NCBI GenBank assembly: GCA_018433925.1
Contig: JAHDQI010000319.1
Span: 1-39,364, forward strand
Reading direction: 5' to 3'
DNA length: 39,364 bases
Source: Phycisphaerae bacterium
Lineage (GTDB): Bacteria; Planctomycetota; Phycisphaerae; Sedimentisphaerales; Anaerohalosphaeraceae
Shown here: in pieces, positions 12,957 to 35,765 of the stretch
Layout of the letters: every line of letters begins with the position of its first letter
Numbering within the stretch: the first letter of the stretch is position 1
Made by a program: the position numbers and the translations under genes
Notes under the pieces: generated by a model
Seen by the model: the letters and a program-made list of their open reading frames with translations, nothing else
Databases searched by the model: none
What the model was told of the DNA's origin: nothing

Positions 12957-14552
12957 ATGGGTCTGATGAAAAAGGTGATTTGTCACTCTCCTGACGGGAG
13001 TTATCCAGATATGATTCCGACAACAATTTCGTATGAGGATTTTCATCGCCTGATAGCCCGGCGTTCAGGGTCGCTCTTTCGCGCCTCTGCATTTCTGGTC
13101 GCTCATGCACACTCCCATAAAATCCTGACCCGACCCCTCCTCGGTGAACTGCTCTATCAATCCACGCTGCTCGAAGAATTGCTGGATGCTTATGGCGCCA
13201 GGAACAACTCACACTGGGAACGATTTCGCTCGCTGATCGCCGCGATCAAACTGTTTTCCTATGTCAGCTACGAACTTCTTCACATCCAGCACAGCATCCC
13301 GGCCTATCGTCTTTTGCCCGTGGAAGAGGATTTCAGCAAACGCACGGCCGAGACCATTGGATTTACGGAAAACATTCTTTCAGACGCCACCCGCCGCCTG
13401 CTGGACGAGGCCCAAAAGCTCAACCTGCCCGTTCATCATGTCGATCTTCCCGAAGAATATTACAGCGAAACCCTTCCCCCCGGCCGGCTCCCGCATGACC
13501 TGGCCACCCGAAAACTCGAAACCGTCTCACAGACAATTTCTCTTCTGGCAACGGCTTTTCTGAACCTGTCGGCCGAATGCAAGCAGGCCCTTCCGAAAGG
13601 ACAGGTCCAGTCCGATTCCTTCCTCTGCGAATACATCGGACCGGTCAGCGAAGACAAACTGCGATCGCTGGAGCTGCGGTTTCATAACCTCCAGTCCCTC
13701 TACGACACCTATGTATCCACAACCGTAGCCGAGGGCATTGACGAGGAACTGCCCGTGATGCGCGGCCATATCAGTGTGGTGCTTCATCTGCTTCGTACCG
13801 CGCGGGATTTTGCCCACTATATTGAACGCCATGCCGGTCCCTATCAGGCCAAACTGCCCCCCCACCGAAAACGGCTGGTCGAACCGGAAACCCTGCTTCA
13901 GATCATGCTCAATTATTCCATCCACTTTGTCGTTCAATACCTGACCTGTGCCGAGAAACTCTGCCGGGACATGCTCAAACGCTATACCGAGATAGAGACC
14001 ATTGAAGTCCCGGTGCCCCCTTACCGCGGATTTCACGTGCGGCCGTCAACCCTCGTTTCCAAGCTGGTCCTGCATTACGGCAGCGATGTGACGATGGAAC
14101 TGGATGGCGAAGAATACGACGCCAAATCGCCCCTCGAACTGTTTCGGGCCAACGAAAAAATCAACGCGCAAAAACGAAAAGCCCTGGCCGCTGAAATTCT
14201 TCGGCTCAACCTGCTGCCCGAAAGCACGGCCGAACAGGACATACGAAAAGTCATCCGCTCAATCCTCATTGCCCTTTCCGAAAAGGGAAATTTGATTGTT
14301 TACGAGCAACCTCTGCAGATTGAAAATCCTCCCGTCCGTGCCGGGGCCTCCCTGCTCGAACAGGTCAATGATGAAATTGCACGACTCCAGGTCACCGGAA
14401 AAATCGACATCGTCACAGACACCCGCGTCCGCTTTACAGGCGATAAACGAGTCCTCGAAGACATCCAATTACTGGCCGAAAACGGCTACGGAGAAGACCG
14501 AACCGGAAGCAATATCCCCCTTCCGGAAGGCCTTCACTATCTCAGAAAGTAA
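12957..14552 (+). CDS. Large multidomain protein with an embedded HPr-like phosphocarrier domain
   Basis: A protein of up to 531 residues. Residues 1 to about 340 are mostly helical and unrecognised (SYVSYELLHIQHSIPAYRLL, HISVVLHLLRTARDF). From about residue 348 an HPr-like domain follows: VPVPPYRGFHVRPSTLV, with the phosphorylatable His at residue 360. ELDGEEYDAKSPLE places a Ser at 391, exactly 31 residues later, as His15 and Ser46 are in HPr. A helical insertion then separates this from a last strand (GNLIVYEQPLQI), and about 100 further residues follow. In PTS systems HPr carries phosphate from enzyme I, and Ser46 is set by HPr kinase. No PTS enzyme is adjacent. The start is uncertain: the ATG at 12957 has no ribosome binding site, while the ATG at 13011 has GGGAG ten bases upstream and fits the promoter at 12912 better. 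Confidence 0.85.
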   Translation: MGLMKKVICHSPDGSYPDMIPTTISYEDFHRLIARRSGSLFRASAFLVAHAHSHKILTRPLLGELLYQSTLLEELLDAYGARNNSHWERFRSLIAAIKLFSYVSYELLHIQHSIPAYRLLPVEEDFSKRTAETIGFTENILSDATRRLLDEAQKLNLPVHHVDLPEEYYSETLPPGRLPHDLATRKLETVSQTISLLATAFLNLSAECKQALPKGQVQSDSFLCEYIGPVSEDKLRSLELRFHNLQSLYDTYVSTTVAEGIDEELPVMRGHISVVLHLLRTARDFAHYIERHAGPYQAKLPPHRKRLVEPETLLQIMLNYSIHFVVQYLTCAEKLCRDMLKRYTEIETIEVPVPPYRGFHVRPSTLVSKLVLHYGSDVTMELDGEEYDAKSPLELFRANEKINAQKRKALAAEILRLNLLPESTAEQDIRKVIRSILIALSEKGNLIVYEQPLQIENPPVRAGASLLEQVNDEIARLQVTGKIDIVTDTRVRFTGDKRVLEDIQLLAENGYGEDRTGSNIPLPEGLHYLRK

Positions 14553-15718: not shown

Positions 15719-15752
15719 CTTCCATTACTCCCGATCAGTCCCTGTCCATTGA

Positions 15753-18472: not shown

Positions 18473-18520
18473 CGTATGAACTCCCTGCCTTGAAATCATT
18501 GGGATTACACGTGACTGCAC

Positions 18521-19497: not shown

Positions 19498-22400
19498 CTA
19501 CGGCACGATCGGTACCGGCAGATTCGGACACGTCTCAGCATCCTGTCCGGCCCGGCAGGTCGCACTCGGCTGCGTGGCGTTGCGATTCGGCGAACGATCC
19601 CGTACCTCAATGTAATACCGATACGGCGCCGATCCGACATAAACCGGGACCCAGAACTCATTGGGCTGCAGATTATTGATATCCACCGTCGGCGGAGGAT
19701 TGATTTGTCCCGTGGCGTACAATTCGAGAAGGTTGTCCTCATTCATCCACGGGCTGGTATTCCCCGCCGCGTCCAGGCAGACAAACCGGTACTCAACACC
19801 GCTGGCATCATCGGCCGCAGCGGCACGCATGTAATGATACCAGGTGTCTTCCAGTTGATGCCGCGGCCAGACCTCCCACTGCGCCGGACTCGGCGTCGGG
19901 ATAATATCATCGATCTCAATCGTATTAGCCGCAAAGACAGCAGAAGAAGTCGTCGGGACCACATCATGGTAACGGCCCTCAAAATCGCGGAAGACCAACT
20001 GGCTGAAGGTCCGGTAGTAATACGTTTCCCCAAGCTGAAGTCCCGTATCCACAAAAATCCACGGCTGTGTCTTATAGGCCTTGAAGATCGAACCCGGATC
20101 ATAGGCCTGCTGAATGATTGGATCGCCGACAGCGTTGCCCAGGGCATCCGTCTTCTGGAAGCAGTAATCAATATGGAAACTGCCGTCCAGCGGAGCTGTC
20201 ACTTCCGGCAGACTGCCCGCTTCCACCTGGACTGCTTCCATCTCAATCTCATCCTCCGAGATGCCGGCCGGGACCCGTTCAAACTCCGACGGATCAGGCG
20301 TCAGCAGGTCATAATTTGTCCCCGGAATAATACCGGCGACCACCGACCGCTCTGTCTCATTGCCGCTGCCGTCCTGTGCAAACACCACAAACTCATACGG
20401 CTCGCCGGGAATCAGCCCGTCGAGAGTCAGATTGCGGTCGGGATCCCAACTGGCAGGATCGGTTACATAGGTATTCGGGTCATTGCTTCTGACGATGACA
20501 AATTGATATTTGATATAGCTGTCCGGCCACCAGTCATCATGGGCCTCAACCGCTGACATGACAATCCTGTCGATGCGATAATTCGGATTCGGCACGATTT
20601 CATTGTTGACCGTTATGGTCGTCGGCAGCAGCGACGGCTCGGTTTCCCATCTCATCGGACTGGGTGTCGGAGGCGTCTCATCGCGCTCCAGCCAGCAATC
20701 TACCAAAAGGGATATGTCCTGAGCATCCACGATTGTATCCAGATTCAGGTCCGCTCCGTCGCACCAGTCCATCTCATTACAGGATTCTCCAAGCCATTCG
20801 GAGGCCAGATGGGCCCAATCCTCAATATCTATCTGACCGCTGAGGTTCAGGGCGTTATCCACCTTGGCACATTTCGTGCGGCGGGTGATAAAATAGTGAT
20901 ATCCGAGATCAACCAGGTCCCGGTCAAGCATACCGGAAACCTGGGTCGTATACCCATCCAGGTCCAGCGCGGCGGCCAGTCCGCTGCCGGTATCCACAGC
21001 CGGACTATCCGGATTCAGATAGTATTTTTCTTCCGGCAGGATCGTGCGTCCGTCTTCTTCAGGCGATTCAAACAGCGGATCAAGAGACAGGATCCCGGCC
21101 TGCTTATCCAGCTCATTGCCCGGACGGACATAAACCGCGTTGCCGGAAGTGAGAATGTTCTGCACATTCGAGTAAGACATTGTCATCGTCGATTTATAAT
21201 ACTCCTCTTCAAAGCCGGAGCCGACTGTTGCCTGGGTTCCCTGCAGGGCCGCGTTGGACCAGAGAATACCGTCTTTGACCTCCACAGTACTGCCGTAGCC
21301 CACAAACAGGCCCCCGCCGGTTCCCGGCTGTCCGCTCACCCAGTTGTCCGCAAACGTACAATGCAGCAGGTCCGCGGCCGTAAACCAGTTAATCGAGGCC
21401 CCGCCGCCGTCACGAGCCGCCCGGTTCTGGATAAACAGGCAGTTGTGAATCGTCGACGTATTCCCCGTAAATCCGGCCATATACAGCCCGCCGCCGGAAA
21501 TCCCCGACAGGTTGTTGCCGAAGACCGAATCCTTCAGATACAGGTCCACTCCGCCGACATACATGCCGCCGCCCTGCCCGACAGCCGTCATCTCGGCCAC
21601 CGGAACCAAAAGCGGATTCGGATCGATCGGATCCGAGGTGCCCGCCACCGGAACGCGAACCAGGTTTTGCTTAAAGAAGGATTTTTCAACCGTCGCTTTC
21701 TTGTCAATCTGCATAAACCCGGCCCCAAGGTAGGCCTCGTTATCAGCCAGGTTGCAGTCCGTAATCGTAGTCGTTGACAGGTTGGCATAAATGCCCCCGC
21801 CGTCAGCCGCCGCGTTATTGACCATCGTGCATTCGTCAAAGATCGCGATGCAGTTGTACTCATAGGCCACACCGCCGCCAAAGCTGACATGGAACGAATG
21901 CGGCAGATCCACGGTCGTGTTATCAGCGATGTTATCCTCGAACCGGCAGCCCTTAAACTCCAGCTCGCAGTCGTGAGCCGCATACACCGCTCCGCCCGCC
22001 GTGGGCATATTAAGCGGACGATCCGGCCACGGAGATTCGCCTCCAGCAAGAGGTCCGCCAACGCCGGTCCGGCCGCCCTGCGTTCGGTTGTTCTCAAAAA
22101 CGCAGTCCCTGAATTTCGCGTTGCTCTTAAATTCGCAATACACAGCCCCGCCGTAACCGCTGTAACGGGCCGCGTCCAGAAGCTGGTCATACGGGTCGCC
22201 CAGCGGATCGATCGGATCACCGCTGTAAGCGGCTAAAAATTCATCCCAGCTTGTAAACAGGTTTTCACCCGTCTCTCGATCCTGCCAGCCAAACCACCGC
22301 GACCACTCATCCATATCATAATCGCCGAAAAATTGGGTGTAATAGCTGATCGCACTGCCATATTTATCTCCGTAAGCATTAAACGCCCAGCCGTCCCAGC

Positions 22401-25400
22401 CCCGGGTTTCCCTCAGATACTGCTCATTGTAGTCATCATAGACCCAGCCGCCGCCGCGACCGCCGTCGTACATAATACCCTGGTCCACCCAGCCGGCCGC
22501 ACCATTACCGCCGGTCGCGCCCCGGGCTTCGTTCCCGGTAAAGACGCAGCGGGTAAACGTCGGGCTGCTGCTCAGGCCGCAATAAACCGCCCCGCCGTAC
22601 GCCGGGCTCGGCCAGCCGCCGTCCCCGCCGGTCGGATGCGATTCTGCCCCCGCAAAGCCGTTTTCACCGTCCTGGGCCCAGGCCAAATTGTTCTCAAATG
22701 TGCAATCAGTAATAGTCGGTGAACTATCAAACAACTGAAGGGCTCCGCCCAGCATCGCCATTTGATGGAATCCATCCGTTCCGGCCGGAACGTCTCCTTC
22801 GTGGAAAAGGAAATCCTGTCGAAACTGGCAATTGCTGAACACGCAGTTTCGGATCTCAATGTCCGCGTTGACCAGATGCATGCGGCTCTGATCAAGCGTA
22901 ACCCCTTCGATCACCGTTCCCTTATCCAGGTTGTGGAGCTGGAATCGGAAATCACGGAAGATCGTGGCCCGAACCGTATCTTCATTACCCGGATTCGACC
23001 CGGAAATAGTCAGCCGCTTGTTCTGCAGAACAATATTATTAACGCCCGATCCAAACTGGCTGCCCGCCACATAAAGGCCCGGCGCCACCCAGATAAAATC
23101 GCCGTCCTGCGCATCCGAAATGGCCTCGCCCAGCGTATCATACCCGCTCGAGGTTCCGACAAACAGCGTCTTCCGGAACCGGGCGTGCGCCCCGATGGAT
23201 TTATTACGCGACATCAGAACCCGGTTCGTGTGCTCCTGCGACTTATCATCAAACGTTCCGCCGGACCACTTGGTCAGCAAGTAGCCGTCTTGGATGGTTG
23301 CCTCCAGTTCCACAATCGCGCCCAGCGGATAGCGGACCAGGGACGGGGCCGGCGTAATCGTTCCCAGTGCCGGATTGACATACCCGTCCTCATCTTTCAC
23401 GCAAAGCTCGAGCAGGTAAAGCTCATCCGGTTCCGGGATCGTATAGTGATAGCCAAGATCCACCCCATTCCCATCCGGAGCCGGATTGGTTTCCGCCGGA
23501 TCGGTCGTATAGCCGTCAGAGAATCCGGCCTGAACGGCCGACACACTGCCGGCGTCAAGGGCCGGGCTGGTCGCCTGGTTCAGGTAATAAGCGCCCAGCG
23601 GACCGGTCTCAAACCTCGGATTACCGGAACGAATTTCGCTATAGCCCGGAGCGGTGGCCGCCGCGTAAATCAACTGATCGGCGCCGTTATACACATCCCC
23701 GCCCGCATTGCCGTAGAACAGGGCATAAGAAACCACAGAGTCTCCCCCCGGCTTCTCATAAATGCCCACGCCCTCGTTGCCGCTGACGATGGAATTGGCC
23801 ATATCGACAACCGAAGCATTGTCCGCATACAGACCGCCGCCCACCCCGATCTCGCTGATATTGTCCGACAGCGTACTGTTATCAATCTCCAGGTGGACAT
23901 ACTGCAAACACGAAACGCCGCCGCCGGTCTGCTCAGAAGAGTTGCCGGTCACCAGCGTATTCCACAGGTTTTGCTGGAAATAGTCCTGGCTGCCCGTAAT
24001 GCACAGGCCGCCGCCCGAAGAAAGAAGACCCGTGGCCTTGTTCTTTTCAATCCGGGTGTCCTTAATCGTAAACGGACCGTCGGTAATATGCAGACCGCCG
24101 CCGTATCCTTCGCCGGTAGCGCTGCGGTGAGCCCCGGCATCGATGCCGGCCGCCGTGTTTTCATAAACCACACAGCCCTGGACCGTCAAATCGGTACGGC
24201 TCGCACGCAGGGCCCCGCCGCTGGCGGCCTTATTCTGAATCATAAAGCAGTCCGTCAGTTCAAAGATCGTATCCTTGGCAAACACCGCGCCGCCCAGACC
24301 GCTGGCCTGGTTGCCGCTGAATTCACACCTGTCAAATGTCAGGTAAATCGTATGAACATACGGCGAAGGAACCTGCATATAGGAGAACACCCCGCCGCCG
24401 TGACCGAGAGACCGGTTGCCATTGAGGGTACAATCGGTCAGCACCAGGTCGCTGAGCGTATGAATCGCACCGCCGCTTGAATGAGACAGGTTCCCGTAAA
24501 AACGGCTGTCCGTAATCAGAATCGGCTGCTTGGCATTGACCTCGACCGTAATCGCACCGCCCAGATCCAACTCGCTGTAGTTGAATAAATCGTCTTCCGT
24601 CTCCGGCTCGACAAAGGTGAAGTTGTTGATAAACTCCGCCGACTCGATGTAAAGATCGGCCCCGGTGCGGCAATAAAGAGCCCCGCCCAGACTGTCCTCA
24701 AAGAGAGGAGTCAAAGAAATCGGCTCAGGTCCCGTCTCATCCAGGCCGGGCACAATCGTCAGCGACACATTCAGGCCGCTGTAAATCGCCCCGCCCAGCG
24801 TCGGAACCGGCGGATCATTATAGGTAAACACCTCGTAGGCCTCGTTGCCGATAAACTGGCAGCCCTGCAGCGTCACATCCGCGTTTTCTTCAATAAACAG
24901 CGCCCCGCCGGCCCGCAGACCGTTGGAAATCAGGATGCCGTTACGGCCGTCGCGCATGCCCTCCTCACCCCATGGATCATTGCCCCAGGGTTCCGGATAA
25001 TCGCTGCCGTCCGCTTCGCTGCCGCCGGCGTGCACATAACCGGGCCGCGCGTAATTGCCTTCAAAGACGCAATTTAGAATCGTCGGGTTGCAGCCGTTAG
25101 CCACATAGATCGCCCCGCCCCGGCCGTCGCCTTCCCCATACCCGGCCTGCGGATTGACGCCGTACTGAACGGCCCATGCGACGCCGGCCGGGTCGTTTCC
25201 GCCCCAGCCGTATCGGACGCTATTGTAAGCCAGGCCCGCGTTGCCGGGAATGCCGCCCCAGCCGCCCGTGGCCCGGTTATTCTTAAACTGGCAATTGATA
25301 ATCGTCGGGTTGCTCTTGCCGACAATGGCAATCGCCCCGCCGTAGCCGTCGCCGGTGCCCTTCCCGGAATGCCCGCCCGACTGGCTGTCAAGATCCTCTT

Positions 25401-28400
25401 CCGTAATAAGATTTTGCGGCCATAAGCCGTTTTCACCGTCGCCGCCGACACCCCCGGACACCGTGCAGTTCTCAAAGACACAGTTGCGGATAACCGGCGA
25501 ACTGCCGTTTTCAAGCAAAATCGCACCGCCGTAGCTGTCTCGGTTCGCGTCTTCACCCGACAGACCACGAGTCGGAGGCAGCGGGTCCGGCGGATTCTCA
25601 AACGGCCACGGCCAGAAACCGGTATCAATCGCATAACTGGCTCCGATTTCGGCCGTAAAGGCGTTGCGAATCGTCACCCCTTCAATGCGGGTCTCGCTGC
25701 TCTGACCGCCGTTGAAGTGGAAGGCCCGCTTTGATAGATACCGGCTGCCCTGGCAATCAATAATCGTCTGCGCAACCGTCTGCGGGTCATTCGGGTCCCA
25801 CGAGGTCACCACCAGGTTCATATCGCCGAAGTTCAGCCCGTCCGGATTCTCGATCAGGTACGGCTGATCCGGACGCGGGGCCAGCACGACAATATCGCCG
25901 TCGCGGGCCGCCAGCAGGGCGTCCTCGATTGTATCAAAGCTTTCCGGCACATACAGCTTCGTCGCCACCGCCAACTCAAACTCCACGGTGACAATTTTAT
26001 CTTCATTCATCGTCACATAATTCGTGAATGCCTTCGACTGGTCGTCATCCGTACCGGTCCATTGTTTCACTCGATACAGATTCGGATCCGTCACCGCGTC
26101 CAGCCGAACTCGAACCCCCTGCGTCAGCGAGATCGGCGGCAGGACCACGGCCGGCCCTTCCTGGCCCGAATCGCTGTCCGAAGACCAGGTGGCCTGAATC
26201 TCGCCCATCGGGTCCACTTTCGCGATATATACGCTCGCGTTCAGCATATAATACTGAACCTCTTCTACATTGTAATGATAGCCCAGGTCAATCGGCTCGG
26301 CATCTTCGATATGATCGGTCCGCGTCGTCACCTCAAACCCAAGAAAAGCCCCCAGGTCAGCGATGTAACTGGTCGAGACCTCACTGTTCGGAATCCCCCG
26401 ATCGATGCAGCCGCTGTCTGCCGACTGCCCGGCGCCCTGATGGCTCAGATAATACGATTTGCCCGCGCTGGCTCCGGCAGCCACAAACAACGGATTCATA
26501 TCAAACACTGAACGATTCACCCCGTCATACCACAAGTCAAAAACAAGCATGCTTTCCAGCGGCATCGCCCGGTACGCCCCATACGCATCGAGATCATCGG
26601 CCGACCCTTCGAGATCCGTATAAGAAAGACCGATGGTGCAATAAGCCGTATCCGTTTTCAGCGGATTGCCAAGCGCCAACTGTTTGCCGAGAGCCGCGTC
26701 GTTGTTCCAGACGATACTGTTTTCAAGAAAGACAAAGGTTTCAATCGCCGGCGATCCGGCACTCCAGGAGGTATCGTTGCCGCAACTGACCGCCCCGCCG
26801 TATCCCGACAGGCCGGTCACTTCATTATCCGCCACCGTACAGTTAATCAGGTACGGTTCGGCGCTGTTCATCGCCGCAAAACCCCCGCCGTCTCGGCCCG
26901 CGCTGTTCTGAGCGATCAGGCAATTAACAAAGTCCTGCGTACCGCCGGGAATCGACGAAAAGGAGCCGACGATATAAACGCCGCCGCCGCTGGACTCCGC
27001 GAGATTCTCCGTAATCCGGCAATCATACATACGGACGGATTCACTGATGCAGTACAGGGCGCCGCCCGAAGCCGTCAGCGTCTCGCTGTTCTCAAGGGCC
27101 GCGGCCGTGTTTTGCGAGAAAATACTTTTTTCTACTGTAAAATCGGATTCGGCGCTGAATATCGCACCGCCGTATTCGGCAATATTATCGGTAAACTCAC
27201 AATCGTTCACATCGGCCACAACGCCGAAAACGCAGACCGCACCGCCCATTTCGGCAAGCCCGCCGGTAAACGTGCTGTTTTCGATATGCACATCCATAAA
27301 AGTAATATAGTCGTCCACCCAGATCGCTCCGCCCGTGGAGCTCGATTGGCCCGAAATGGTCGTCGAATCCGCGATGTTCTCCTCAAACCTGCAGCCGGAC
27401 ACGTTCAACTGTCCCCCGGCCCCGAATTCATTATACCCAATCGCACCGCCGCCTTCGCCGCCCCGGGGATCAATACCAATCTCGGAATAACCCGCCGCGT
27501 TTTCCTGAAATACGCAGTCCGTAAACGTCACGCTGATCGGCGTGTGATCGAAACATACAGCGCCTCCGTCATCCGCGGCGCTGTTCTGGAAAAACAGGCA
27601 GTCCGTAAAGGTGCTGGTAGACGCCCCGTCAATATACAAACCGCCGCCGTCATCATTGTCGGCCCGGTTACTCGAAAACGTCGAATCGGACGCCGTCAGG
27701 ATCGAAAAGTCCTCTATAAAAACGCCGCCGCCGTAGGAATTTGTGTTCCATTGCAGATAAAAGAGCGGATCAGGTCCCTGGATCTCGCCGGATACGCCGC
27801 CTGCGCCCGGCTCGCCGTGCTCACCCGTCCGGTGCCCTGAGCCGCCGCCGCCGCCGATACCGCCCGGCGCATTGCCATTATCCCCGCCGTCGCCGCCGTC
27901 CCCGCCGTCACCGCCGTTGCCGCCGAACGCAAAGACCCCCCAATCCATAAACAGGAGAGCATCCGGATAATTATAATAACCCGTATCGGCCCAGGTATCC
28001 ACACCGCCTGCGTCACCGCCGCGGCCGCCGTTGCCGCCCACACCGTGAGGAGCCGTCTCATCTCCGGCATTGCCGCCGTCGCCTCCGTCACCGCCGGCGC
28101 CGCCCTGGTATTGTTCAATTGTCCGATCCAGTACAACATCTGTCCCGTCTCGAAGAACGATGATCCCATCCCGCTGAAGCGTGGTCCGGTTATTGAAAAA
28201 CGTAGATCCTGTAATCGTCAAGTCCGTCGAGTTGCCCGCGTAAACTGCACCGCCGTAGACAACCTGCCAGCTATCCATCGCTCCGCCGCCGTCGTGGCCG
28301 GCGTTGCCGCCGGCGCCGCCCTGACCGCCCTGGCCGCCCTGGCCGGCAGGTCCGTCCTCGCCGGGTTCTCCGTCAACGCCCCCGTCGGTACCCGTACCGC

Positions 28401-31400
28401 CTGTACCGCCCGTTCCTCCGGTCCCCCCGCTGCCCGCATTGCCCGCGTTGCCGGCGGCCCCGCCATAATTGCCCGTCCCGATGATCACGCCGCACCCCGA
28501 GATCGTGCTGTCACGAATTTCCGGCCGAAGGGTCTGGCCGACTGTGTTGCCCGCAAAATAAATCGCACCACCGAACGCGTTGCCCCCGTTGCCGCCGTGA
28601 CCTCCGTCACCGCCGGCGCCCCCGTCACCGCCGTGGCCGCCCGGACCCCCGTCACCGCCGGGGCCGCCGGGGCCGCCGCCAATACCGTCAATACCGGCGC
28701 CGCCGTTACCCCCGTTACCGCCGTTACCGCCGTTGCCCCCATCGCCCCCGTCACCGCCATTGCCCCCGTTGCCGCCGGAGCCCGCGTTGCCGCCAAGCGC
28801 AAAACACCCGTTAATGGTGCAGCTCCGGATTAGCGGAGCGCTGCCGAGATCGGCATAAATCGCACCCCCGTACCCATGACCGCCGTGACCGCCGTCCTGG
28901 CCTCGCGACCCGGGAAATCCGTGCAGACCATTGGGATCCCCCTCTGCTATGCCGCCCGGCTGACCCGGCGAACCCGCCATGCCGTCGGCTCCGTCCTCAC
29001 CGTCTTCGCCGTCCGTGCCGTCCGGACTTGCCTCACGGCCTTCCTGATTCACAGGCCGCCCGTCTCTGCCGTCACTGCCGTCCTGACCCTGCGCACGGCA
29101 ATTCAAAAACACACAGTTGGCAATCGTCGGACTCGACCCATTGCTGCAGAGAATGGCTCCGCCCAGCGCATCGGCCCCGGTCACTCCCTCTACAATTGAA
29201 GGCAGCGGCTCGATCGCTTCAGCATTCTGAATTGTAAAGCCGTCCAGAAGCGTATCTCGACCCTGCCCCGATTCAAACACAAATGCCCTGTCATCCCCCC
29301 CCCGTCCGTTCAGGGAAGGATCAATAACGGTCGTAGCCACAATAAACGGATCGTTCGGATTGATACTGCGCACGGTAATCGGCCAGGCCGGAAAATGAAT
29401 GTTTTCTTCCGGATAAATACCTGGATACACAATCACCGTATCGCCGGGATTCGATGAATCGATCGCCGCCTGAATGGTCCGGTACGGATAAGGCACTTCC
29501 AGCACACGCTGGCCCGTTCCCGTAAACGCCCCCCCCGGAGAAGTGGACTCGGTCTCATAAAGAATGCTTGACGGATCGCCCGGAGAGGCGGTTTTCTGCC
29601 GCATGTACCCCTCAAAGACATATTCAAATCCCTCCTCCTGGGACACCTCGACCGTGTATTCATTCGAACTCTGCCACCCGCTGTCAAATGGATCCGGGTC
29701 CAGTTCTTCGTACATACGGTAATAATCCACCACAATCAGCGCACGCCGCCCGATCAGCGGATTGCCGGACGGAACAATCACCTGTCCGCTGACAAGATAT
29801 TCCTCGCCCGGCTCCACCAGCACTTCCTGGTACCAGCCCGAGTCCATGAAATACAGAACCGCCGACGCGGAATCCTCGTAATACCCCGCATCCGACGCGA
29901 TATATGCGTTCTGCCCCCATGAATTCCAGCCGCCTGCGTCCGCTTCAAAATCACCGTTGATAATCCGATTGCCGCTGCTTCCAATCAGTTGAATCTGGTC
30001 AAAATACGCAAAACCCAGCCCCGTATAGTCCCCCCCGGGATCCAGCGTCATAAGCGAAATCCGAACCTTATCCACACCGGCCGGGATCGTAATGGTGTCC
30101 TGAATCAAATGCCATGTATCCGTCGGGTCCGTACTCAGAACCTCGCCGATCTCTTCAGAGCCGACCAGCGTCTCTGCGTACCGGCTGGCGGAAGTACAGT
30201 CAAAATAATATTCCACACCGTTTTCATCGTACCCCCGGTGCAGTTTCATGGAAATGTTCTTTTTCCGATAGATTTCAATCTCCCGCGGCAGCGATTCCCA
30301 CAGAGCCGGGTCCGGAGCCGGAGGCAGGTTGTCATAACCCGAAGCCGTGATCGTTGTGACGGCATTGGACCATTCCGTCGCATTCCCATAGGCATCCCGT
30401 GAGCGGCACTGGAAGGTATAGGACGTGCCCTCCTCGGCCTCGGTAATAAGAAACAATTGCGATTCCTGCCACCCGCTGTTGAGACTCGGATCAGTCGGAT
30501 ATTCCAGACAGACAAATTCATATTCAATACCGCCGGAAATATCGCTGGCCAGGGCCGCCTTCATGGCAATATGCTTCAGCCCCGTCGCCTGCGGCTCAAA
30601 AAACCACTCCGCCGGATTCGGGGTCGGGGAAACCGTATCGGCCACTTCCAGCGAGGAAAGGGCATTATACAAATTCAGACGCCCTCCCGACACACAGCTC
30701 GTCGCCAGCCCTTCAATCGGATCAACGCTCGACAGAATAACCTGCTTGACTTCCTCGGCCGTCAGCGAAGGAAGGACCGACCAGACCAGCGCACAGGCGC
30801 CGGCCACATGCGGACAGGCCATCGAGGTCCCCTGGTACGATTGATACCCGTCCGGAATCCCATCGTCATCCAGCTCAAGCGGAACGGTACTGACAATATC
30901 CACACCCGGCGCCGCCAGATCGACTGTCGTCAGACCCCAGTTCGAAAAAGACGGCCGCATATCATCATGATTCGTCGCCATGACCGAGATAATACTGTCC
31001 AGGTCATAACTGGCCGGGAAAGCGGGATTGGTATCGTTGTTGTTGCTTTCATTGCCCGCGGCCGCCACAAACAACAGGCCCGCCCGCTCACTGGCAAGCA
31101 TCGCGTCATAACGCGCCTGACTGAAGGTATATCCCCCGTACGAATTATTCGTAACCCAGGCGCCCATCCGAACGGCATAATTGATCGCCGCGATAATGGC
31201 AGAATCCGGCAGCGGATGATAAATTTCATCCTCCAGCTCAAGAAGAATGCTGGCCTTCAGCGCCATTATCCGAACATTCCAGTTGACCCCGGCAACCCCC
31301 TGATTGTTATTGCCGACTGCCCCGATCGTTCCCGATACATGCGTGCCGTGACCGGCTTCATCCAGGGGGTCGGAATCCCCTTCGCCAAAATCATACCCGT

Positions 31401-32010
31401 AGATATCATCTACATAGCCGTTGCCGTCATCATCGACACCCGGAGTCCCGTTCAACTCCGCCTCATTGACCCACAGATTGGCCGCCAGATCCGGATGCTC
31501 ATAATTTACACCCGTATCAATCACGCCGACAAGTACCTGCCGGCTTCCCGTCGCAAGGTCCCAGGCCTCCACCGCGTCAATATCCGCATCCGCTGTCCCG
31601 CCGGTTTGCCCCGTATTGTGCATCCCCCACAATTGGTTGAAGTACGTATCGTTCGGAACAAGCTGCGGCCACGAGAAATAATCCGGATCCGCATAGCGAA
31701 CACCCGGATGGGTCTGAAATGAAATTCGAGCATTCGATACAGTCGCCCCCTGCGGCAGACGCACCAGCCCCAGGCCCGGTACAAGCTCATACATCGTCTC
31801 AAGGGTTCCGCCCCCGGCCGCCTGAATCACCGCTTGACGCGCAGCCGTCGCCGCCGAACCCGTGCCTTCTTCATGGAAACGGACCAGCAAATAGCCCTCT
31901 CGATAAGAGGGCAAATTTTGTGGATGGCTCGGATTCTGAAAAAAGCCCGCAAGACAAACCGCAGACAGAAGACTGACGATAATGGCTCCAATAAATACTT
32001 TTCGTGCCAT
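19498..32010 (-). CDS. Giant secreted subtilisin-like / beta-helix / dockerin-like protein (about 4170 aa)
   Basis: One uninterrupted frame. The ATG at 32008-32010 has GGAGGG four bases upstream and opens a signal peptide (MARKVFIGAIIVSLLSAVCL), so it is preferred over the in-frame ATG at 32058. Approximate residues: an S8 peptidase domain to about 460 with Asp165 (VIDTG), His221 (GHGTHVSG), Asn320 (AAGNES) and Ser396 (GTSMACPHVAG), a complete triad. Two Fn3-like domains follow at about 470-830, the second holding an inserted carbohydrate-binding-like segment (NGDFEADAGGWNSWG). Then come three right-handed beta-helix modules (about 835-1910, 2010-2855, 2945-3705). Each opens with a '-TI-AI---GD-I-V-PG-Y' line, contains many GGA(I/V)Y rungs and ends in DLGYHY. 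An InlB-B-like segment follows modules 1 and 2. A dockerin-like pair (about 3712-3775, ending SEWL and DCWL) and Fn3-like domains opening TPSPMRW or TPSPAQW complete it. No PEP-CTERM, LPXTG or autotransporter barrel is seen, so the secretion route and anchoring are unknown. A role in polysaccharide binding or degradation, or in surface attachment, is an inference. Confidence 0.9.
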   Translation of the reverse strand: MARKVFIGAIIVSLLSAVCLAGFFQNPSHPQNLPSYREGYLLVRFHEEGTGSAATAARQAVIQAAGGGTLETMYELVPGLGLVRLPQGATVSNARISFQTHPGVRYADPDYFSWPQLVPNDTYFNQLWGMHNTGQTGGTADADIDAVEAWDLATGSRQVLVGVIDTGVNYEHPDLAANLWVNEAELNGTPGVDDDGNGYVDDIYGYDFGEGDSDPLDEAGHGTHVSGTIGAVGNNNQGVAGVNWNVRIMALKASILLELEDEIYHPLPDSAIIAAINYAVRMGAWVTNNSYGGYTFSQARYDAMLASERAGLLFVAAAGNESNNNDTNPAFPASYDLDSIISVMATNHDDMRPSFSNWGLTTVDLAAPGVDIVSTVPLELDDDGIPDGYQSYQGTSMACPHVAGACALVWSVLPSLTAEEVKQVILSSVDPIEGLATSCVSGGRLNLYNALSSLEVADTVSPTPNPAEWFFEPQATGLKHIAMKAALASDISGGIEYEFVCLEYPTDPSLNSGWQESQLFLITEAEEGTSYTFQCRSRDAYGNATEWSNAVTTITASGYDNLPPAPDPALWESLPREIEIYRKKNISMKLHRGYDENGVEYYFDCTSASRYAETLVGSEEIGEVLSTDPTDTWHLIQDTITIPAGVDKVRISLMTLDPGGDYTGLGFAYFDQIQLIGSSGNRIINGDFEADAGGWNSWGQNAYIASDAGYYEDSASAVLYFMDSGWYQEVLVEPGEEYLVSGQVIVPSGNPLIGRRALIVVDYYRMYEELDPDPFDSGWQSSNEYTVEVSQEEGFEYVFEGYMRQKTASPGDPSSILYETESTSPGGAFTGTGQRVLEVPYPYRTIQAAIDSSNPGDTVIVYPGIYPEENIHFPAWPITVRSINPNDPFIVATTVIDPSLNGRGGDDRAFVFESGQGRDTLLDGFTIQNAEAIEPLPSIVEGVTGADALGGAILCSNGSSPTIANCVFLNCRAQGQDGSDGRDGRPVNQEGREASPDGTDGEDGEDGADGMAGSPGQPGGIAEGDPNGLHGFPGSRGQDGGHGGHGYGGAIYADLGSAPLIRSCTINGCFALGGNAGSGGNGGNGGDGGDGGNGGNGGNGGNGGAGIDGIGGGPGGPGGDGGPGGHGGDGGAGGDGGHGGNGGNAFGGAIYFAGNTVGQTLRPEIRDSTISGCGVIIGTGNYGGAAGNAGNAGSGGTGGTGGTGGTGTDGGVDGEPGEDGPAGQGGQGGQGGAGGNAGHDGGGAMDSWQVVYGGAVYAGNSTDLTITGSTFFNNRTTLQRDGIIVLRDGTDVVLDRTIEQYQGGAGGDGGDGGNAGDETAPHGVGGNGGRGGDAGGVDTWADTGYYNYPDALLFMDWGVFAFGGNGGDGGDGGDGGDNGNAPGGIGGGGGSGHRTGEHGEPGAGGVSGEIQGPDPLFYLQWNTNSYGGGVFIEDFSILTASDSTFSSNRADNDDGGGLYIDGASTSTFTDCLFFQNSAADDGGAVCFDHTPISVTFTDCVFQENAAGYSEIGIDPRGGEGGGAIGYNEFGAGGQLNVSGCRFEENIADSTTISGQSSSTGGAIWVDDYITFMDVHIENSTFTGGLAEMGGAVCVFGVVADVNDCEFTDNIAEYGGAIFSAESDFTVEKSIFSQNTAAALENSETLTASGGALYCISESVRMYDCRITENLAESSGGGVYIVGSFSSIPGGTQDFVNCLIAQNSAGRDGGGFAAMNSAEPYLINCTVADNEVTGLSGYGGAVSCGNDTSWSAGSPAIETFVFLENSIVWNNDAALGKQLALGNPLKTDTAYCTIGLSYTDLEGSADDLDAYGAYRAMPLESMLVFDLWYDGVNRSVFDMNPLFVAAGASAGKSYYLSHQGAGQSADSGCIDRGIPNSEVSTSYIADLGAFLGFEVTTRTDHIEDAEPIDLGYHYNVEEVQYYMLNASVYIAKVDPMGEIQATWSSDSDSGQEGPAVVLPPISLTQGVRVRLDAVTDPNLYRVKQWTGTDDDQSKAFTNYVTMNEDKIVTVEFELAVATKLYVPESFDTIEDALLAARDGDIVVLAPRPDQPYLIENPDGLNFGDMNLVVTSWDPNDPQTVAQTIIDCQGSRYLSKRAFHFNGGQSSETRIEGVTIRNAFTAEIGASYAIDTGFWPWPFENPPDPLPPTRGLSGEDANRDSYGGAILLENGSSPVIRNCVFENCTVSGGVGGDGENGLWPQNLITEEDLDSQSGGHSGKGTGDGYGGAIAIVGKSNPTIINCQFKNNRATGGWGGIPGNAGLAYNSVRYGWGGNDPAGVAWAVQYGVNPQAGYGEGDGRGGAIYVANGCNPTILNCVFEGNYARPGYVHAGGSEADGSDYPEPWGNDPWGEEGMRDGRNGILISNGLRAGGALFIEENADVTLQGCQFIGNEAYEVFTYNDPPVPTLGGAIYSGLNVSLTIVPGLDETGPEPISLTPLFEDSLGGALYCRTGADLYIESAEFINNFTFVEPETEDDLFNYSELDLGGAITVEVNAKQPILITDSRFYGNLSHSSGGAIHTLSDLVLTDCTLNGNRSLGHGGGVFSYMQVPSPYVHTIYLTFDRCEFSGNQASGLGGAVFAKDTIFELTDCFMIQNKAASGGALRASRTDLTVQGCVVYENTAAGIDAGAHRSATGEGYGGGLHITDGPFTIKDTRIEKNKATGLLSSGGGLCITGSQDYFQQNLWNTLVTGNSSEQTGGGVSCLQYVHLEIDNSTLSDNISEIGVGGGLYADNASVVDMANSIVSGNEGVGIYEKPGGDSVVSYALFYGNAGGDVYNGADQLIYAAATAPGYSEIRSGNPRFETGPLGAYYLNQATSPALDAGSVSAVQAGFSDGYTTDPAETNPAPDGNGVDLGYHYTIPEPDELYLLELCVKDEDGYVNPALGTITPAPSLVRYPLGAIVELEATIQDGYLLTKWSGGTFDDKSQEHTNRVLMSRNKSIGAHARFRKTLFVGTSSGYDTLGEAISDAQDGDFIWVAPGLYVAGSQFGSGVNNIVLQNKRLTISGSNPGNEDTVRATIFRDFRFQLHNLDKGTVIEGVTLDQSRMHLVNADIEIRNCVFSNCQFRQDFLFHEGDVPAGTDGFHQMAMLGGALQLFDSSPTITDCTFENNLAWAQDGENGFAGAESHPTGGDGGWPSPAYGGAVYCGLSSSPTFTRCVFTGNEARGATGGNGAAGWVDQGIMYDGGRGGGWVYDDYNEQYLRETRGWDGWAFNAYGDKYGSAISYYTQFFGDYDMDEWSRWFGWQDRETGENLFTSWDEFLAAYSGDPIDPLGDPYDQLLDAARYSGYGGAVYCEFKSNAKFRDCVFENNRTQGGRTGVGGPLAGGESPWPDRPLNMPTAGGAVYAAHDCELEFKGCRFEDNIADNTTVDLPHSFHVSFGGGVAYEYNCIAIFDECTMVNNAAADGGGIYANLSTTTITDCNLADNEAYLGAGFMQIDKKATVEKSFFKQNLVRVPVAGTSDPIDPNPLLVPVAEMTAVGQGGGMYVGGVDLYLKDSVFGNNLSGISGGGLYMAGFTGNTSTIHNCLFIQNRAARDGGGASINWFTAADLLHCTFADNWVSGQPGTGGGLFVGYGSTVEVKDGILWSNAALQGTQATVGSGFEEEYYKSTMTMSYSNVQNILTSGNAVYVRPGNELDKQAGILSLDPLFESPEEDGRTILPEEKYYLNPDSPAVDTGSGLAAALDLDGYTTQVSGMLDRDLVDLGYHYFITRRTKCAKVDNALNLSGQIDIEDWAHLASEWLGESCNEMDWCDGADLNLDTIVDAQDISLLVDCWLERDETPPTPSPMRWETEPSLLPTTITVNNEIVPNPNYRIDRIVMSAVEAHDDWWPDSYIKYQFVIVRSNDPNTYVTDPASWDPDRNLTLDGLIPGEPYEFVVFAQDGSGNETERSVVAGIIPGTNYDLLTPDPSEFERVPAGISEDEIEMEAVQVEAGSLPEVTAPLDGSFHIDYCFQKTDALGNAVGDPIIQQAYDPGSIFKAYKTQPWIFVDTGLQLGETYYYRTFSQLVFRDFEGRYHDVVPTTSSAVFAANTIEIDDIIPTPSPAQWEVWPRHQLEDTWYHYMRAAAADDASGVEYRFVCLDAAGNTSPWMNEDNLLELYATGQINPPPTVDINNLQPNEFWVPVYVGSAPYRYYIEVRDRSPNRNATQPSATCRAGQDAETCPNLPVPIVP
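27770..29100 (-). repeat. Glycine-rich (GGN / G-x-x) repeat inserts within beta-helix module 1
   Basis: Five stretches of near-perfect Gly-Gly-X repeats lie inside the giant gene, for example GGNGGNGGDGGDGGNGGNGG and GTGGTGGTGGTG. The first is more collagen-like (G-x-x with Asp, Pro, Glu). Each stretch falls between a '-I-NC-F' strand and the following YGGA(I/V)Y rung, so they read as loops extruded from the helix. At DNA level they are arrays of ccg-ccg-tca/ttg-type triplets on the plus strand. Confidence 0.85.
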
Positions 32011-32485
32011 GGCACCCTCCGTATAGGTCCTGTATGTTTCCATTTTGCCTGTTTCCAATCGTAAGTAGTTTATACAAAGCAGTTAAGACGGGCAATATAG
32101 ACACTGCCCGTTTGCAAACGATACACGTAAGGTATCGGATAACAGAAAAGGCGAGTTTATATTACCTTACCAAATTACCTATTCTCCGTCAAGTTGATTT
32201 GAAAATACACAGCATAAACAAACTGGTAAAAATCGATGTTATCAGACGTACTAAAACCCCCAGAATGTATTTCGACTTATTATGTCTTTAATGAGAGCCG
32301 ATAGACCTATAAAAACACAGAAAACAGTATTTATATATGATCTTTGCACCCATTATAGTAAATTGGATTGACCAAGTGTTACATTTTTTTCTTATTTTTA
32401 GTGATTTTTTTAAATTTCGCCTTAAAATCTTTATTTTATGAATTATCAATGTCCTGTATTGAAAGGAAACTTTTCGGATACACCT
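32011..32485. promoter_or_regulatory. AT-rich divergent intergenic region: structured leader of the giant gene and aroA upstream region
   Basis: There is no convincing gene in these 475 bases. On the minus strand a TATAAT lies at 32352-32357 with a weak -35; transcription from it would give a leader of about 335 bases. A nearer TTGACG (32185-32190) with a poor -10 is possible. The leader holds ACGGGCA / TGCCCGT (32088-32094 with 32105-32111), CGATAC / GTATCG (32119-32124 with 32132-32137) and the palindrome CGTTTGCAAACG (32109-32120). GTAAGGTA / TACCTTAC (32127-32134 with 32163-32170) competes with the second stem. On the plus strand TTGACC (32368-32373), followed after 18 bases by TTATTT, may serve aroA. 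No known riboswitch was recognised. Confidence 0.5.
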
Positions 32486-33769
32486 ATGAATGTAAAAGTC
32501 AGCAAATCCCAACTTTCCGGCTCGGCCGCGATACCGGCATCAAAATCCCATACAATCCGCGCGGTCGCCATCGCCTCCCTCGCCGAAGGCCGCAGCACAA
32601 TCCGCCGCCCCCTCAGTTCCAGCGACACCCTCAGTGCCGTCGAGTGTTATCGCGCCCTCGGTGCTCGAATCGACACCTCAAACACCGGCCAATGGATCAT
32701 AAACGGCATGGCCGGGACCATCCGCAACCAGCAAGCACAAATCGATGTCGGCAACTCAGGCACCACCCTCCGGCTGGCAATCGGATCGGCTGCGCTGGCT
32801 GGTCCGGAAGCGAAAATCCATTTTACAGGCGATCAGCAAATCCAAACCCGCTCCGTCGCCGCCCTGCTTCAATCCCTCGCCGATTTAGGGGCCGCAGGAA
32901 CTTCACTCAAAAACAACGGCTGTGCCCCTCTCGAAATACGCGGCACGCTCACCGGCGGAAAAACCACAATAGAATGCTTTACCAGCCAGTTTCTGTCCTC
33001 ATTACTGCTGGCCTGCCCACTGGCGCAAAATTCTTCCGAAATTGATGTAACTCTATTAAATGAAGCGGATTACGTCCAGATGACACTCGACTGGCTGGAC
33101 CGTCAGGGCATCCAGTATGAAAATCGGAATTTCAAGCATTTCTCCATCCCCGGCCGCCAGTGCTACAAAGCGTTTGATCTCCCCATTCCCGCTGATTTCT
33201 CCAGTGCCACCTTTTTCCTCTGCGCCGGAGCCATACTCGGCCGAGATATAGAGCTTACGGGTCTTGATTTTGCCGACAGCCAGCCCGACAAGGCCGTCGC
33301 GGACTATCTCAAGGCCATGGGAGCGAAAATCCGCATTGATGAAGCCGCGGTCCATATCGCACAATCCGCCCTGAAAGGCATCGACATCGACATGAACCGC
33401 ACGCCCGATGCCCTGCCCGCCATGGCCGTCACCGCCGCCTTCGCCGAAGGCACAACCCGCCTTCTCAATGTCCCCCAGGCCCGAAAAAAGGAGACCGACC
33501 GCATCGCCTGTATGGCCGCCGAACTGAAAAAACTCGGAGCCGATGTGGAGGAGCTCACCGACGGCCTGGTCATTCACGGAGGCAGGCCGCTCTCGGCCGC
33601 TCCCCTTCACGGCTGGGCCGATCACCGCATCGTCATGGCCCTTTCACTGGCCGGCATGGCCCTCAACGGCCAAACCACCATCGACACCGCCGAGGCCACC
33701 AGCGTCACCTTCCCCACCTTCGTACCCCTTATGCAATCCCTTGGCGCAAAAATAACCATGCTTCCCTGA
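32486..33769 (+). CDS. aroA: 3-phosphoshikimate 1-carboxyvinyltransferase (EPSP synthase)
   Basis: It joins PEP to shikimate 3-phosphate, the sixth step of the shikimate pathway. Starting at MNVKVSKSQLSGS gives 427 residues, the normal length. Lys20-Ser21 in PASKSHTIR binds PEP and S3P, VGNSGTTLRLAIG is the S3P loop, TPDALPAMAV carries the catalytic Asp, and ARKKETDRI and WADHRIVMALSLAG are the other signatures. An in-frame ATG at 32438 would add 16 residues unlike the family start. No good ribosome binding site supports either; AAGGA lies rather far upstream (about 18 bases) of 32486. No other aro gene is adjacent. The protein looks intact. Confidence 0.95.
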   Translation: MNVKVSKSQLSGSAAIPASKSHTIRAVAIASLAEGRSTIRRPLSSSDTLSAVECYRALGARIDTSNTGQWIINGMAGTIRNQQAQIDVGNSGTTLRLAIGSAALAGPEAKIHFTGDQQIQTRSVAALLQSLADLGAAGTSLKNNGCAPLEIRGTLTGGKTTIECFTSQFLSSLLLACPLAQNSSEIDVTLLNEADYVQMTLDWLDRQGIQYENRNFKHFSIPGRQCYKAFDLPIPADFSSATFFLCAGAILGRDIELTGLDFADSQPDKAVADYLKAMGAKIRIDEAAVHIAQSALKGIDIDMNRTPDALPAMAVTAAFAEGTTRLLNVPQARKKETDRIACMAAELKKLGADVEELTDGLVIHGGRPLSAAPLHGWADHRIVMALSLAGMALNGQTTIDTAEATSVTFPTFVPLMQSLGAKITMLP

Positions 33770-33860: not shown

Positions 33861-35765
33861 ATGTCCGGAACAAAAGATTTTTGTGCGCAATGGCAGCAGT
33901 TTGAGCTGCCGTCCCCATGTAGGCATCTGCTCAGCCATTGCCGTTCATTGGTATTCCCGGCCAATCGAGAAGAGATTCTTAAAATGGCAATGGGCGGAAA
34001 AAAAACAGGAACCTTCGAGGTCTCTTATGACATCCCCGGAAGAGGAACCGTGGTCGAGGCCACGGTCACCGCATGCAAAAACGGCCTGTCCGTCAATTAT
34101 ACAGAACCCTATATGCGGCGACGTGACCCGGACTGCATGTATATCGCTGACGACCGCGAAACAGACAAATCCCGTTTCCAGGAGCATTTCCCGGATGCCT
34201 TCGACTCGATTCGACAGCAGACCTTCGATTGGCTGGTCCGGCAGGAACTCGTTGTCACGCTCTTTACCATTGGCTCCTTCGATGAAAACAGCGGTCAGGG
34301 GGCCATGCTGATCGCCCCCAAAAACGCCGGGTTTTTTGTCGGCGGACTGGCGGACTTGCAGGGCATGATCCCGCCGGATAACGTCCCCGAAAATTTCAGG
34401 GTCCGCAGTGTTATTTACCTGGCCCCGACCTTCCGGCATACGCACTGTAACGGCAAGCAGGTGGTGGTTCACAATCGCCTCCCGGACCTCCATGAAATCT
34501 TTTCCTACAACCTCTATCCCGGCCCCAGCGCAAAAAAAGGAATCTACGGCGTACTCCTGGCCATTGGCGAAGATGAGGACTGGCCCACCCTCCACGGATC
34601 CACGGTTCAGGTCGTCACGCCTTATGACAACATTACAACCATCATGCACGAAGGCGCCAGCGGAGGCGGCAAAAGCGAAATGCTCGAGTACGTACACCGC
34701 GAAGAAGACGGCCGCCTCCTCCTCGGCACCAACACCCTGACCGGTGAGCAGCGATTCGTCGTACTCAACCAGGCCTGCCAGTTAAATCCCGTCACGGATG
34801 ATATGGCTATGTGTGTGCCCAACATGGAGAACGCAGACGGCTATCTTCTCGCAAGAGACGCCGAACAGGCCTGGTTTGTTCGCCTGGATCATATCCGAAA
34901 ATACGGAACTGACCCGCACCTTGAAAGCATCCTCATGCATCCCGGCGAACCGCTGATCTTCATAAACCTTGACGCCGTCCCCGGCTCCACCTGCCTCATC
35001 TGGGATCACACTGAAGATGCGCCGGCAAAGCCCTGTCCGAATCCGCGCGTAATCCTTCCCAGGCGGCTGGTCCCCAACGCCGTCCACGAAACCGTGGAAG
35101 TCATGATCCGCAGTTTCGGCATCCGGACGCCCCCCTGCACCCGGGAAAAACCCTCCTATGGAATCGCCGGTTATCTGCATATTCTGCCGGCCGCGCTGGC
35201 CTGGCTGTGGCGGCTGGTCGCGCCGAGAGGACATGCCAATCCAAGCATCACCGATACCGAGGGAATGACCAGTGAGGGGGTCGGTTCCTACTGGCCCTTC
35301 GCTACCGGACGCCTGGTCGATCATGCCAATCTGCTCCTCCGGCAGATCCGTGCCACACCCAAGGTACGATATGCCCTCATGCCCAATCAGCATGTAGGGG
35401 CCTGGAAAGTCGGCTTCATGCCCCAGTGGATCAGCCGCGAGTACCTCGGAAGAAGGGGCCTGGCCCGTTTCTATCCCCATCAGATCGCCCCGGCACGCTG
35501 TCCCCTTCTCGGCTACGCCTTTAACTCCATGCAGGTCGAAGGCACCCCGATCCCTCTCTTTTTCCTTCATCCGGAGAACCAGCCCGAAATCGGCATCGAG
35601 GGATATGACGCCGGCGCCGAAATCCTCCGTGCATTTTTTATCAAAGAACTCCAAAAATTCCGACAGCCCGATCTCGATCCACTCGGAAAGGAAATTATCG
35701 CCTGCGGCCTCGACGGCGGCACCGCGCAGGATTACGAAAACCTTTTATACGATGTCTTTTCCTGA
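33861..35765 (+). CDS. DUF4914-like protein with HPr-kinase / PEPCK-like P-loop
   Basis: A 634-residue cytoplasmic protein with AGGA before the ATG. By length and sequence style (ACKNGLSVNYTEPYMRRRDP) it appears to belong to DUF4914, which has no assigned function. A P-loop, GASGGGKSE at residues 265-273 with Lys271, stands in mid-protein. It is close to the Walker A of HPr kinase/phosphorylase (GESGIGKSE-like) and to that of PEP carboxykinase, which share a fold. Further on, PNPRVILPRRLVP, GHANPSITDTEGMTSEGVGS and YWPFATGRL look like conserved active-site segments of a nucleotide-dependent enzyme. No membrane helix or signal peptide is seen. The gene lies alone between aroA and a terminator. 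A kinase or carboxykinase-like activity is an inference from the P-loop only. Confidence 0.75.
   Translation: MSGTKDFCAQWQQFELPSPCRHLLSHCRSLVFPANREEILKMAMGGKKTGTFEVSYDIPGRGTVVEATVTACKNGLSVNYTEPYMRRRDPDCMYIADDRETDKSRFQEHFPDAFDSIRQQTFDWLVRQELVVTLFTIGSFDENSGQGAMLIAPKNAGFFVGGLADLQGMIPPDNVPENFRVRSVIYLAPTFRHTHCNGKQVVVHNRLPDLHEIFSYNLYPGPSAKKGIYGVLLAIGEDEDWPTLHGSTVQVVTPYDNITTIMHEGASGGGKSEMLEYVHREEDGRLLLGTNTLTGEQRFVVLNQACQLNPVTDDMAMCVPNMENADGYLLARDAEQAWFVRLDHIRKYGTDPHLESILMHPGEPLIFINLDAVPGSTCLIWDHTEDAPAKPCPNPRVILPRRLVPNAVHETVEVMIRSFGIRTPPCTREKPSYGIAGYLHILPAALAWLWRLVAPRGHANPSITDTEGMTSEGVGSYWPFATGRLVDHANLLLRQIRATPKVRYALMPNQHVGAWKVGFMPQWISREYLGRRGLARFYPHQIAPARCPLLGYAFNSMQVEGTPIPLFFLHPENQPEIGIEGYDAGAEILRAFFIKELQKFRQPDLDPLGKEIIACGLDGGTAQDYENLLYDVFS

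Follow-up and report, generated by a model that had tools for sequence, protein, structure and literature searches.

The DUF4914 gene and its surroundings

The window, i.e., the whole 39,364-nucleotide stretch of Phycisphaerae DNA analyzed here, carries an open reading frame of 634 codons that runs from an ATG start to a stop and has no internal stops (Table 1). The encoded protein has a single Pfam match, PF16260 (DUF4914), which covers its whole length (residues 16-628) with 994.5 bits and exceeds the gathering score of 25.7 bits. A search of NCBIfam with this protein returned no match, and neither of the Pfam models PF01293 and PF00821, which describe the ATP- and GTP-dependent PEP carboxykinases (PEPCKs), matched it at the curated cut-off. 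Searches of the PDB with the single window sequence and with a HMMER profile of the DUF4914 family, both taken up to an E-value of 10, likewise matched no chain. The kinship with PEPCKs described below is therefore visible only by profile-profile and fold comparison. DUF4914 occurs in records titled with more than 10 phylum-level groups, and the terms "DUF4914" and "PF16260" were absent from open-licence PMC papers in a full-text search. Alignment A2 comprises the window protein and 43 relatives from named genomes, which are 56-77% identical to it.

Table 1. Genes, motifs and aligned positions considered in the window
Feature	Position	Strand	Basis
HPr-like-domain protein, 531 aa (H360 aligned with His15, S391 with Ser46), judged to be outside the system	12957..14552	+	Pfam, NCBIfam, alignment
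aroA (EPSP synthase), directly upstream of the DUF4914 gene	32438..33769	+	Pfam
DUF4914 protein, proposed PEPCK-type enzyme, 634 aa	33861..35765	+	ORF, Pfam, model, profile alignment
RRRDPD, residues 86-91; R88 aligned with E. coli PckA R65	34116..34133	+	hhalign
YPGPSAKKG, residues 219-227, counterpart of the PCK-specific motif; K225/K226 aligned with K212/K213	34515..34541	+	alignments
H245, aligned with E. coli PckA H232	34593..34595	+	alignments; 44/44
P-loop (kinase-1a) GASGGGKSE, residues 265-273	34653..34679	+	sequence, alignments
D313-D314, kinase-2 Asp-Asp (compare IGDD, LQDD and LHDD in PEPCKs)	34797..34802	+	alignments; 44/44
N394-P395-R396, aligned with N331-T332-R333 of E. coli PckA	35040..35048	+	alignments; N394 and R396 44/44
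Residues 508-523, position of the nucleotide-base region	35382..35429	+	alignments, PMC2684135 Table 2

The aroA product, EPSP synthase, uses PEP, and aroA lies 91 bases upstream of the DUF4914 gene on the same strand. This linkage was found elsewhere only in L050 and L004 among the loci searched, and is suggestive only. In 19 loci, MpsC-domain genes (PF10057) precede the DUF4914 gene in the same orientation; upstream sequence of 1 kb or more is present in 74 of the 80 loci. MpsABC is described as a bicarbonate transporter; such neighbors would fit a CO2-using enzyme, which is again suggestive only. The flanks of eight of the 80 DUF4914 loci hold genes for DUF3360 permeases (L069, L070, L073, L096, L115, L116, L119 and L121, mostly downstream and on the same strand), and MFS transporters are present in five. 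The DUF3360-type permease might carry a related organic acid. In L126, the DUF4914 gene adjoins the gene of a regulator of the AraC type that has a PocR sensory domain, and related regulators are found in some other loci.

Two further regions of the window lie on the reverse strand. Positions 19498-32058 form a single open reading frame for a giant, probably secreted protein of 4186 amino acids. It contains a PF00082 subtilase domain and stretches of right-handed beta-helix (PF13229), along with weaker matches to InlB repeats and fibronectin III. Positions 14576-19243 hold an ABC transporter set that resembles gliding-motility GldA/GldF/GldG, with scores below the NCBIfam cut-offs, and a DUF4340 protein.

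Fold and catalytic positions shared with PEP carboxykinases

An AlphaFold2 model built from the 44 sequences of A2 has a pLDDT of 90.2 and a pTM of 0.90. When the model was compared with the PDB, all of the 50 best rows listed by Foldseek were PEPCKs, with the ATP, GTP and PPi kinds all represented (best E = 3.4e-22), and so were all of the 50 best rows listed by VIA-align. HPr kinase/phosphorylase (HprK) was not among the best 50 rows listed by either program, which excludes nothing. In VIA-align, the Thermus ATP-PEPCK 2pc9_B aligned with Z = 29.4 and an rmsd of 3.0 over 488 of 511 residues, the PPi-PEPCK 8e1u_D with Z = 28.4 over 584 residues, and the GTP-PEPCK 2fah with Z = 26.3. The best ATP and PPi rows, being 1.0 apart in Z, are near-tied.

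We then compared profiles by hhalign, with PEPCK sets gathered from the phylum genomes and E-values that refer to single comparisons. DUF4914 aligned with 25 ATP-type PEPCKs, divergent ones included, at a probability of 96.9 (E = 1.4e-10) over 444 columns spanning residues 27-591, and with 15 GTP-type PEPCKs at a probability of 82.1 (E = 1e-5). Against the ATP and GTP sets, the reversed DUF4914 alignment gave 0.1 and 0.4, and the best of 20 column shuffles gave 0.5 and 5.7, respectively. For reference, the ATP-type and GTP-type PEPCKs matched each other at 99.2. The initial annotation had named PEPCK as a fold relative and suggested structure prediction followed by fold comparison. This suggestion is borne out by a model that is PEPCK-like from end to end and by a profile homology that reaches well beyond the P-loop. 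We consider it nearly certain that DUF4914 has the fold of the PEPCK/HprK superfamily, and profile alignment gives statistical support to a homology between DUF4914 and PEPCK sequences across most of the chain.

The likeness to ATP-PEPCK (PF01293; E. coli PckA, Thermus 2pc9) extends over the full-length fold and includes equivalents of R65, K212/K213, H232, the P-loop, the kinase-2 Asp-Asp, N331 and R333 of the E. coli enzyme. Unlike ATP-PEPCK, DUF4914 has a longer stretch between the P-loop and kinase-2, lacks the adenine-region motif and gives no match to the Pfam models for PEPCK; the identity in the VIA-align rows is 13-16%. The PPi-PEPCKs (8e1u and 6k31) have the most residues aligned among the rows listed (584 and 578 of 634, respectively), but they were compared by structure alone and have 1,108-1,126 residues. 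GTP-PEPCK (PF00821) shares with DUF4914 the fold, a similar length and alignable kinase-2 and Asn-x-Arg regions, whereas its SACGKTN P-loop and its guanine-binding WFR...WPGF motif are missing in DUF4914.

The P-loop string GASGGGKSE is present in the window protein exactly where the initial annotation had placed it, at residues 265-273. All of the 52 DUF4914 proteins examined contain the pattern GxSGxGK[ST], and 42 of them contain GASGGGKSE itself, so that the motif is not a chance occurrence. In addition to the correspondences in Table 1, S267-S272 align with S250-T255 and D313/D314 with D268/D269 of E. coli PckA. This numbering was counted on the alignment and agrees with the mutants named in PDB titles (R65Q, K213S, S250A, K254S and D269N). 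R88, K225, K226, H245, S267, G268, G270, K271, S272, D313, D314, N394 and R396 are all kept in the 44 sequences of A2 and in the nine of alignment A1; R86, R87 and P90 are also kept in 44 of 44 sequences of A2. R65 of E. coli PckA is the arginine that binds oxaloacetate or PEP, and the aligned positions are presumably the substrate arginines and metal ligands.

YPGPSAKKG, which is found in 52 of 52 DUF4914 proteins, is a diverged form of the PCK-specific Lys-Lys motif, i.e., YGGE-MKK in ATP-PEPCK and YGGNxLLGKK in GTP-PEPCK (PMC2684135, Table 2). Residues 508-523, judged by eye, resemble neither the ATP-type nor the GTP-type nucleotide-base motif of the same table, and for this reason we do not name a phosphoryl donor. 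When the window protein was aligned by MAFFT to eight divergent PEPCKs (A3), 17 columns were invariant, the catalytic ones included; this result carries little weight because MAFFT forces an alignment. The eight, which are ATP-PEPCK-like proteins from phylum genomes (L145, L149, L152 and L174-L178), are 20-42% identical to L145, and several of them have QDD or NDD kinase-2 motifs. Several PEPCK sub-families of the phylum may stand unseparated among these proteins.

The proposal of an HPr kinase

HprK and PEPCK have a common core fold. The initial annotation had taken the P-loop of the DUF4914 protein as nearly that of HprK and had proposed that the protein could act on an HPr-domain protein of the same window, whose gene lies about 19 kb away. 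The likeness of the loop is genuine in that eight of nine positions fit GESGxGKSE, but the HprK form G[ED]SGxGKSE is found in none of the 52 DUF4914 proteins and in six of six genuine HprKs. The looser HprK-type pattern GxxGxGKS is present in 52 of 52 DUF4914 proteins and is a motif common to PEPCK too. Beyond the loop, the HprK signature RG[IL]G[IL][LIV]D was found in 0 of 52 DUF4914 proteins and in 6 of 6 HprKs. By hhalign, DUF4914 matched the six genuine HprKs (PF07475) at a probability of 6.7% over 29 columns that all lie near the P-loop, and a single HprK-like protein (L170) at 37.1 over 37 columns, again in the P-loop only. It is worth noting that the ATP-type PEPCK set itself reached only 38.2 against the same six HprKs, so that the HprK comparison alone is of limited power. 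HprKs are also half the size of DUF4914 proteins (308-343 amino acids).

The proposed substrate does contain an HPr-like part with an equivalent of Ser46 (S391), as had been claimed, but this serine is not conserved among its close orthologues. Only two of the seven close-orthologue rows (P0001 and L015-L020) have Ser, and the others have Ala, Thr or Phe. Among the 30 rows aligned from 36 matches, Ser is found in 24, and the His15 equivalent H360 in all 30. The match covers HPr positions 5-49 of 81, with a Pfam score of 19.8 bits versus a cut-off of 23 bits, and a score of 28.3 versus a cut-off of 47.9 for NCBIfam TIGR01003. Within this family, the Arg17 equivalent is present in 30 of 30 rows, and there are two subgroups that differ past the HPr-like part.

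The two families co-occur no more often than chance would predict. Of the 149 phylum genomes, nine carry DUF4914 and 36 the HPr-like protein; two of the nine DUF4914 carriers have both, versus 2.2 expected by chance. When the seven close HPr-like orthologues were taken alone, the overlap was also two (P = 0.058), and both of these cases belong to the family of the window. In the window's genome, an ordinary HPr gene (G000:C24) lies between PTS EIIA and EI genes, and Pfam gave no PF07475 match in this genome or in the window DUF4914 protein. Only half of an ordinary HprK and HPr pair, which could have served the role instead, is present there, HPr being found and HprK not detected. PF07475 gave short and weak matches in 23 of the 149 phylum genomes, one of them over the cut-off. 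Among 50 DUF4914 genomes, which were picked by hand from 80 named loci, 47 have HPr and 29 have HprK over the cut-off. In Thermotoga maritima, a control genome, DUF4914 was found, and neither HPr nor HprK was found.

We consider it highly improbable that DUF4914 is a protein kinase with HPr or the window's HPr-like protein as its substrate. The P-loop that is one residue off that of HprK, the common core fold, the presence of HPr in nearly all carriers and the undetected HprK of the window's genome would all suit such a kinase. However, the similarity to HprK stops at the P-loop, the signature is missing throughout the family, and the serine is present in only two of the seven close orthologues. 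The presence of HPr is itself uninformative, since 143 of the 149 phylum genomes have it. An ordinary HprK alongside DUF4914 in many carriers, the T. maritima genome in which DUF4914 but no HPr was found, and co-occurrence with the HPr-like protein at the level of chance make a general HPr-kinase role very unlikely. The proposed kinase-substrate pair was therefore dropped, and the DUF4914 protein is most likely a metabolic enzyme rather than a kinase on HPr.

A probable PEP carboxykinase and its metabolic context

PEPCK acts at the PEP-pyruvate-oxaloacetate node of central carbon metabolism. In the available part of a review of this node, the PEPCKs enumerated are the ATP-, GTP- and PPi-dependent ones only (PMC8100219). 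We propose that DUF4914 is probably a fourth PEPCK family beside these three, predicted to interconvert oxaloacetate with PEP and CO2. A shared fold alone shows no reaction, and this one is inferred. By analogy with the aligned positions, R88 and R396 would bind oxaloacetate (or PEP and CO2), a divalent metal would be coordinated through K226, H245 and D314, and the P-loop (S267-S272) together with D313 would hold the phosphate donor. The protein would then convert oxaloacetate and the phosphate donor into PEP, CO2 and a product, or the reverse. The direction would probably be PEP carboxylation in sugar fermenters, and possibly PEP supply elsewhere.

We next surveyed DUF4914 genomes for three Pfam families only: PF01293, PF00821 and PEP carboxylase (PF00311). 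Many of these carriers are metagenome-assembled genomes (MAGs) of unstated completeness, so that absences are soft. Over the cut-off, ATP-PEPCK was found in 17 of the 50 genomes and GTP-PEPCK in 23, with at least one of them in 37. In the remaining 13 carriers neither type was detected, and PF00311 was found in 0 of 13. These 13 include the isolates Thermoanaerobacterium saccharolyticum NTOU1, Thermoanaerobacter thermocopriae JCM 7501 and Clostridium oryzae DSM 28571, and one Dictyoglomus and one Chitinispirillum MAG. In each of these five, the DUF4914 protein scores between 1006 and 1104 bits. In T. maritima, PF01293, PF00821 and PF00311 were all undetected.

Some of these organisms have been discussed in the literature. 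In T. saccharolyticum, a PEP-carboxylating enzyme is supported by published 13C flux data (PMC7380578). The NTOU1 genome (G175) has DUF4914 and no match to PF01293, PF00821 or PF00311. Because the T. saccharolyticum genome has no PF01293 or PF00821 match, Tsac_2170 may be its DUF4914 protein; if so, some pipelines already label DUF4914 as PEPCK. Thermoanaerobacter genomes are likewise reported to have an annotated ATP-PEPCK (PMC3608648). Chitinispirillum alkaliphilum is reported to have no identified PEPCK or pyruvate carboxylase (PMC4814513), and the Chitinispirillum MAG (G155) has DUF4914, with no canonical PEPCK found.

In the window's phylum, eight of the nine DUF4914 carriers have a canonical PEPCK, including the window's own genome, which has a GTP-type enzyme (G000:C223). 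The sole carrier without one (G056) has PEP carboxylase (PF00311). Canonical PEPCK is about as frequent in the DUF4914-negative genomes (122 of 140), so that there is no pattern of replacement in the phylum, and we rejected the idea that DUF4914 has replaced canonical PEPCK there.

The presence of a canonical PEPCK in 37 of the 50 carriers and in eight of nine in the phylum also means that a second role for DUF4914 is possible. This coexistence would be explained if DUF4914 were a small-molecule kinase or carboxykinase of PEPCK fold that acts on a compound other than oxaloacetate or PEP. A change of substrate would also suit the altered PCK-specific loop (YPGPSAKK), the altered base region and the very high conservation within A2, with many invariant positions that are not common to PEPCK. 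We nevertheless consider a changed substrate somewhat unlikely, as the catalytic PEPCK positions are all invariant, among them the counterparts of the arginines that bind oxaloacetate, and neither ATP- nor GTP-PEPCK was found in 13 of the 50 carriers or in T. maritima. A protein derived from PEPCK that has lost catalysis and serves as a sensor or regulator of PEP or oxaloacetate would likewise coexist with canonical PEPCK and would fit the AraC-type/PocR regulator adjoining DUF4914 in L126 and the related ones in some loci. A dead relative would not need the catalytic positions that are kept in 44 of 44 sequences, and we regard such a function as very improbable. Finally, DUF4914 could be a compact PPi-PEPCK of about 630 residues, i.e., a second, short lineage that converts PEP, CO2 and Pi into oxaloacetate and PPi or the reverse. 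We hold this identity to be doubtful; if true, anaerobic fermenters such as Thermotoga, Thermoanaerobacter and Thermoanaerobacterium would have the formation of oxaloacetate tied to their PPi economy.

As a fourth PEPCK family, DUF4914 would correct metabolic models, most directly those of T. maritima, Thermoanaerobacter, Thermoanaerobacterium and Chitinispirillum, in which neither canonical PEPCK nor PEP carboxylase was detected. For T. saccharolyticum, a PEP-carboxylating step is demanded by the flux data. A "domain of unknown function" would thereby become a question for one cheap enzyme assay.
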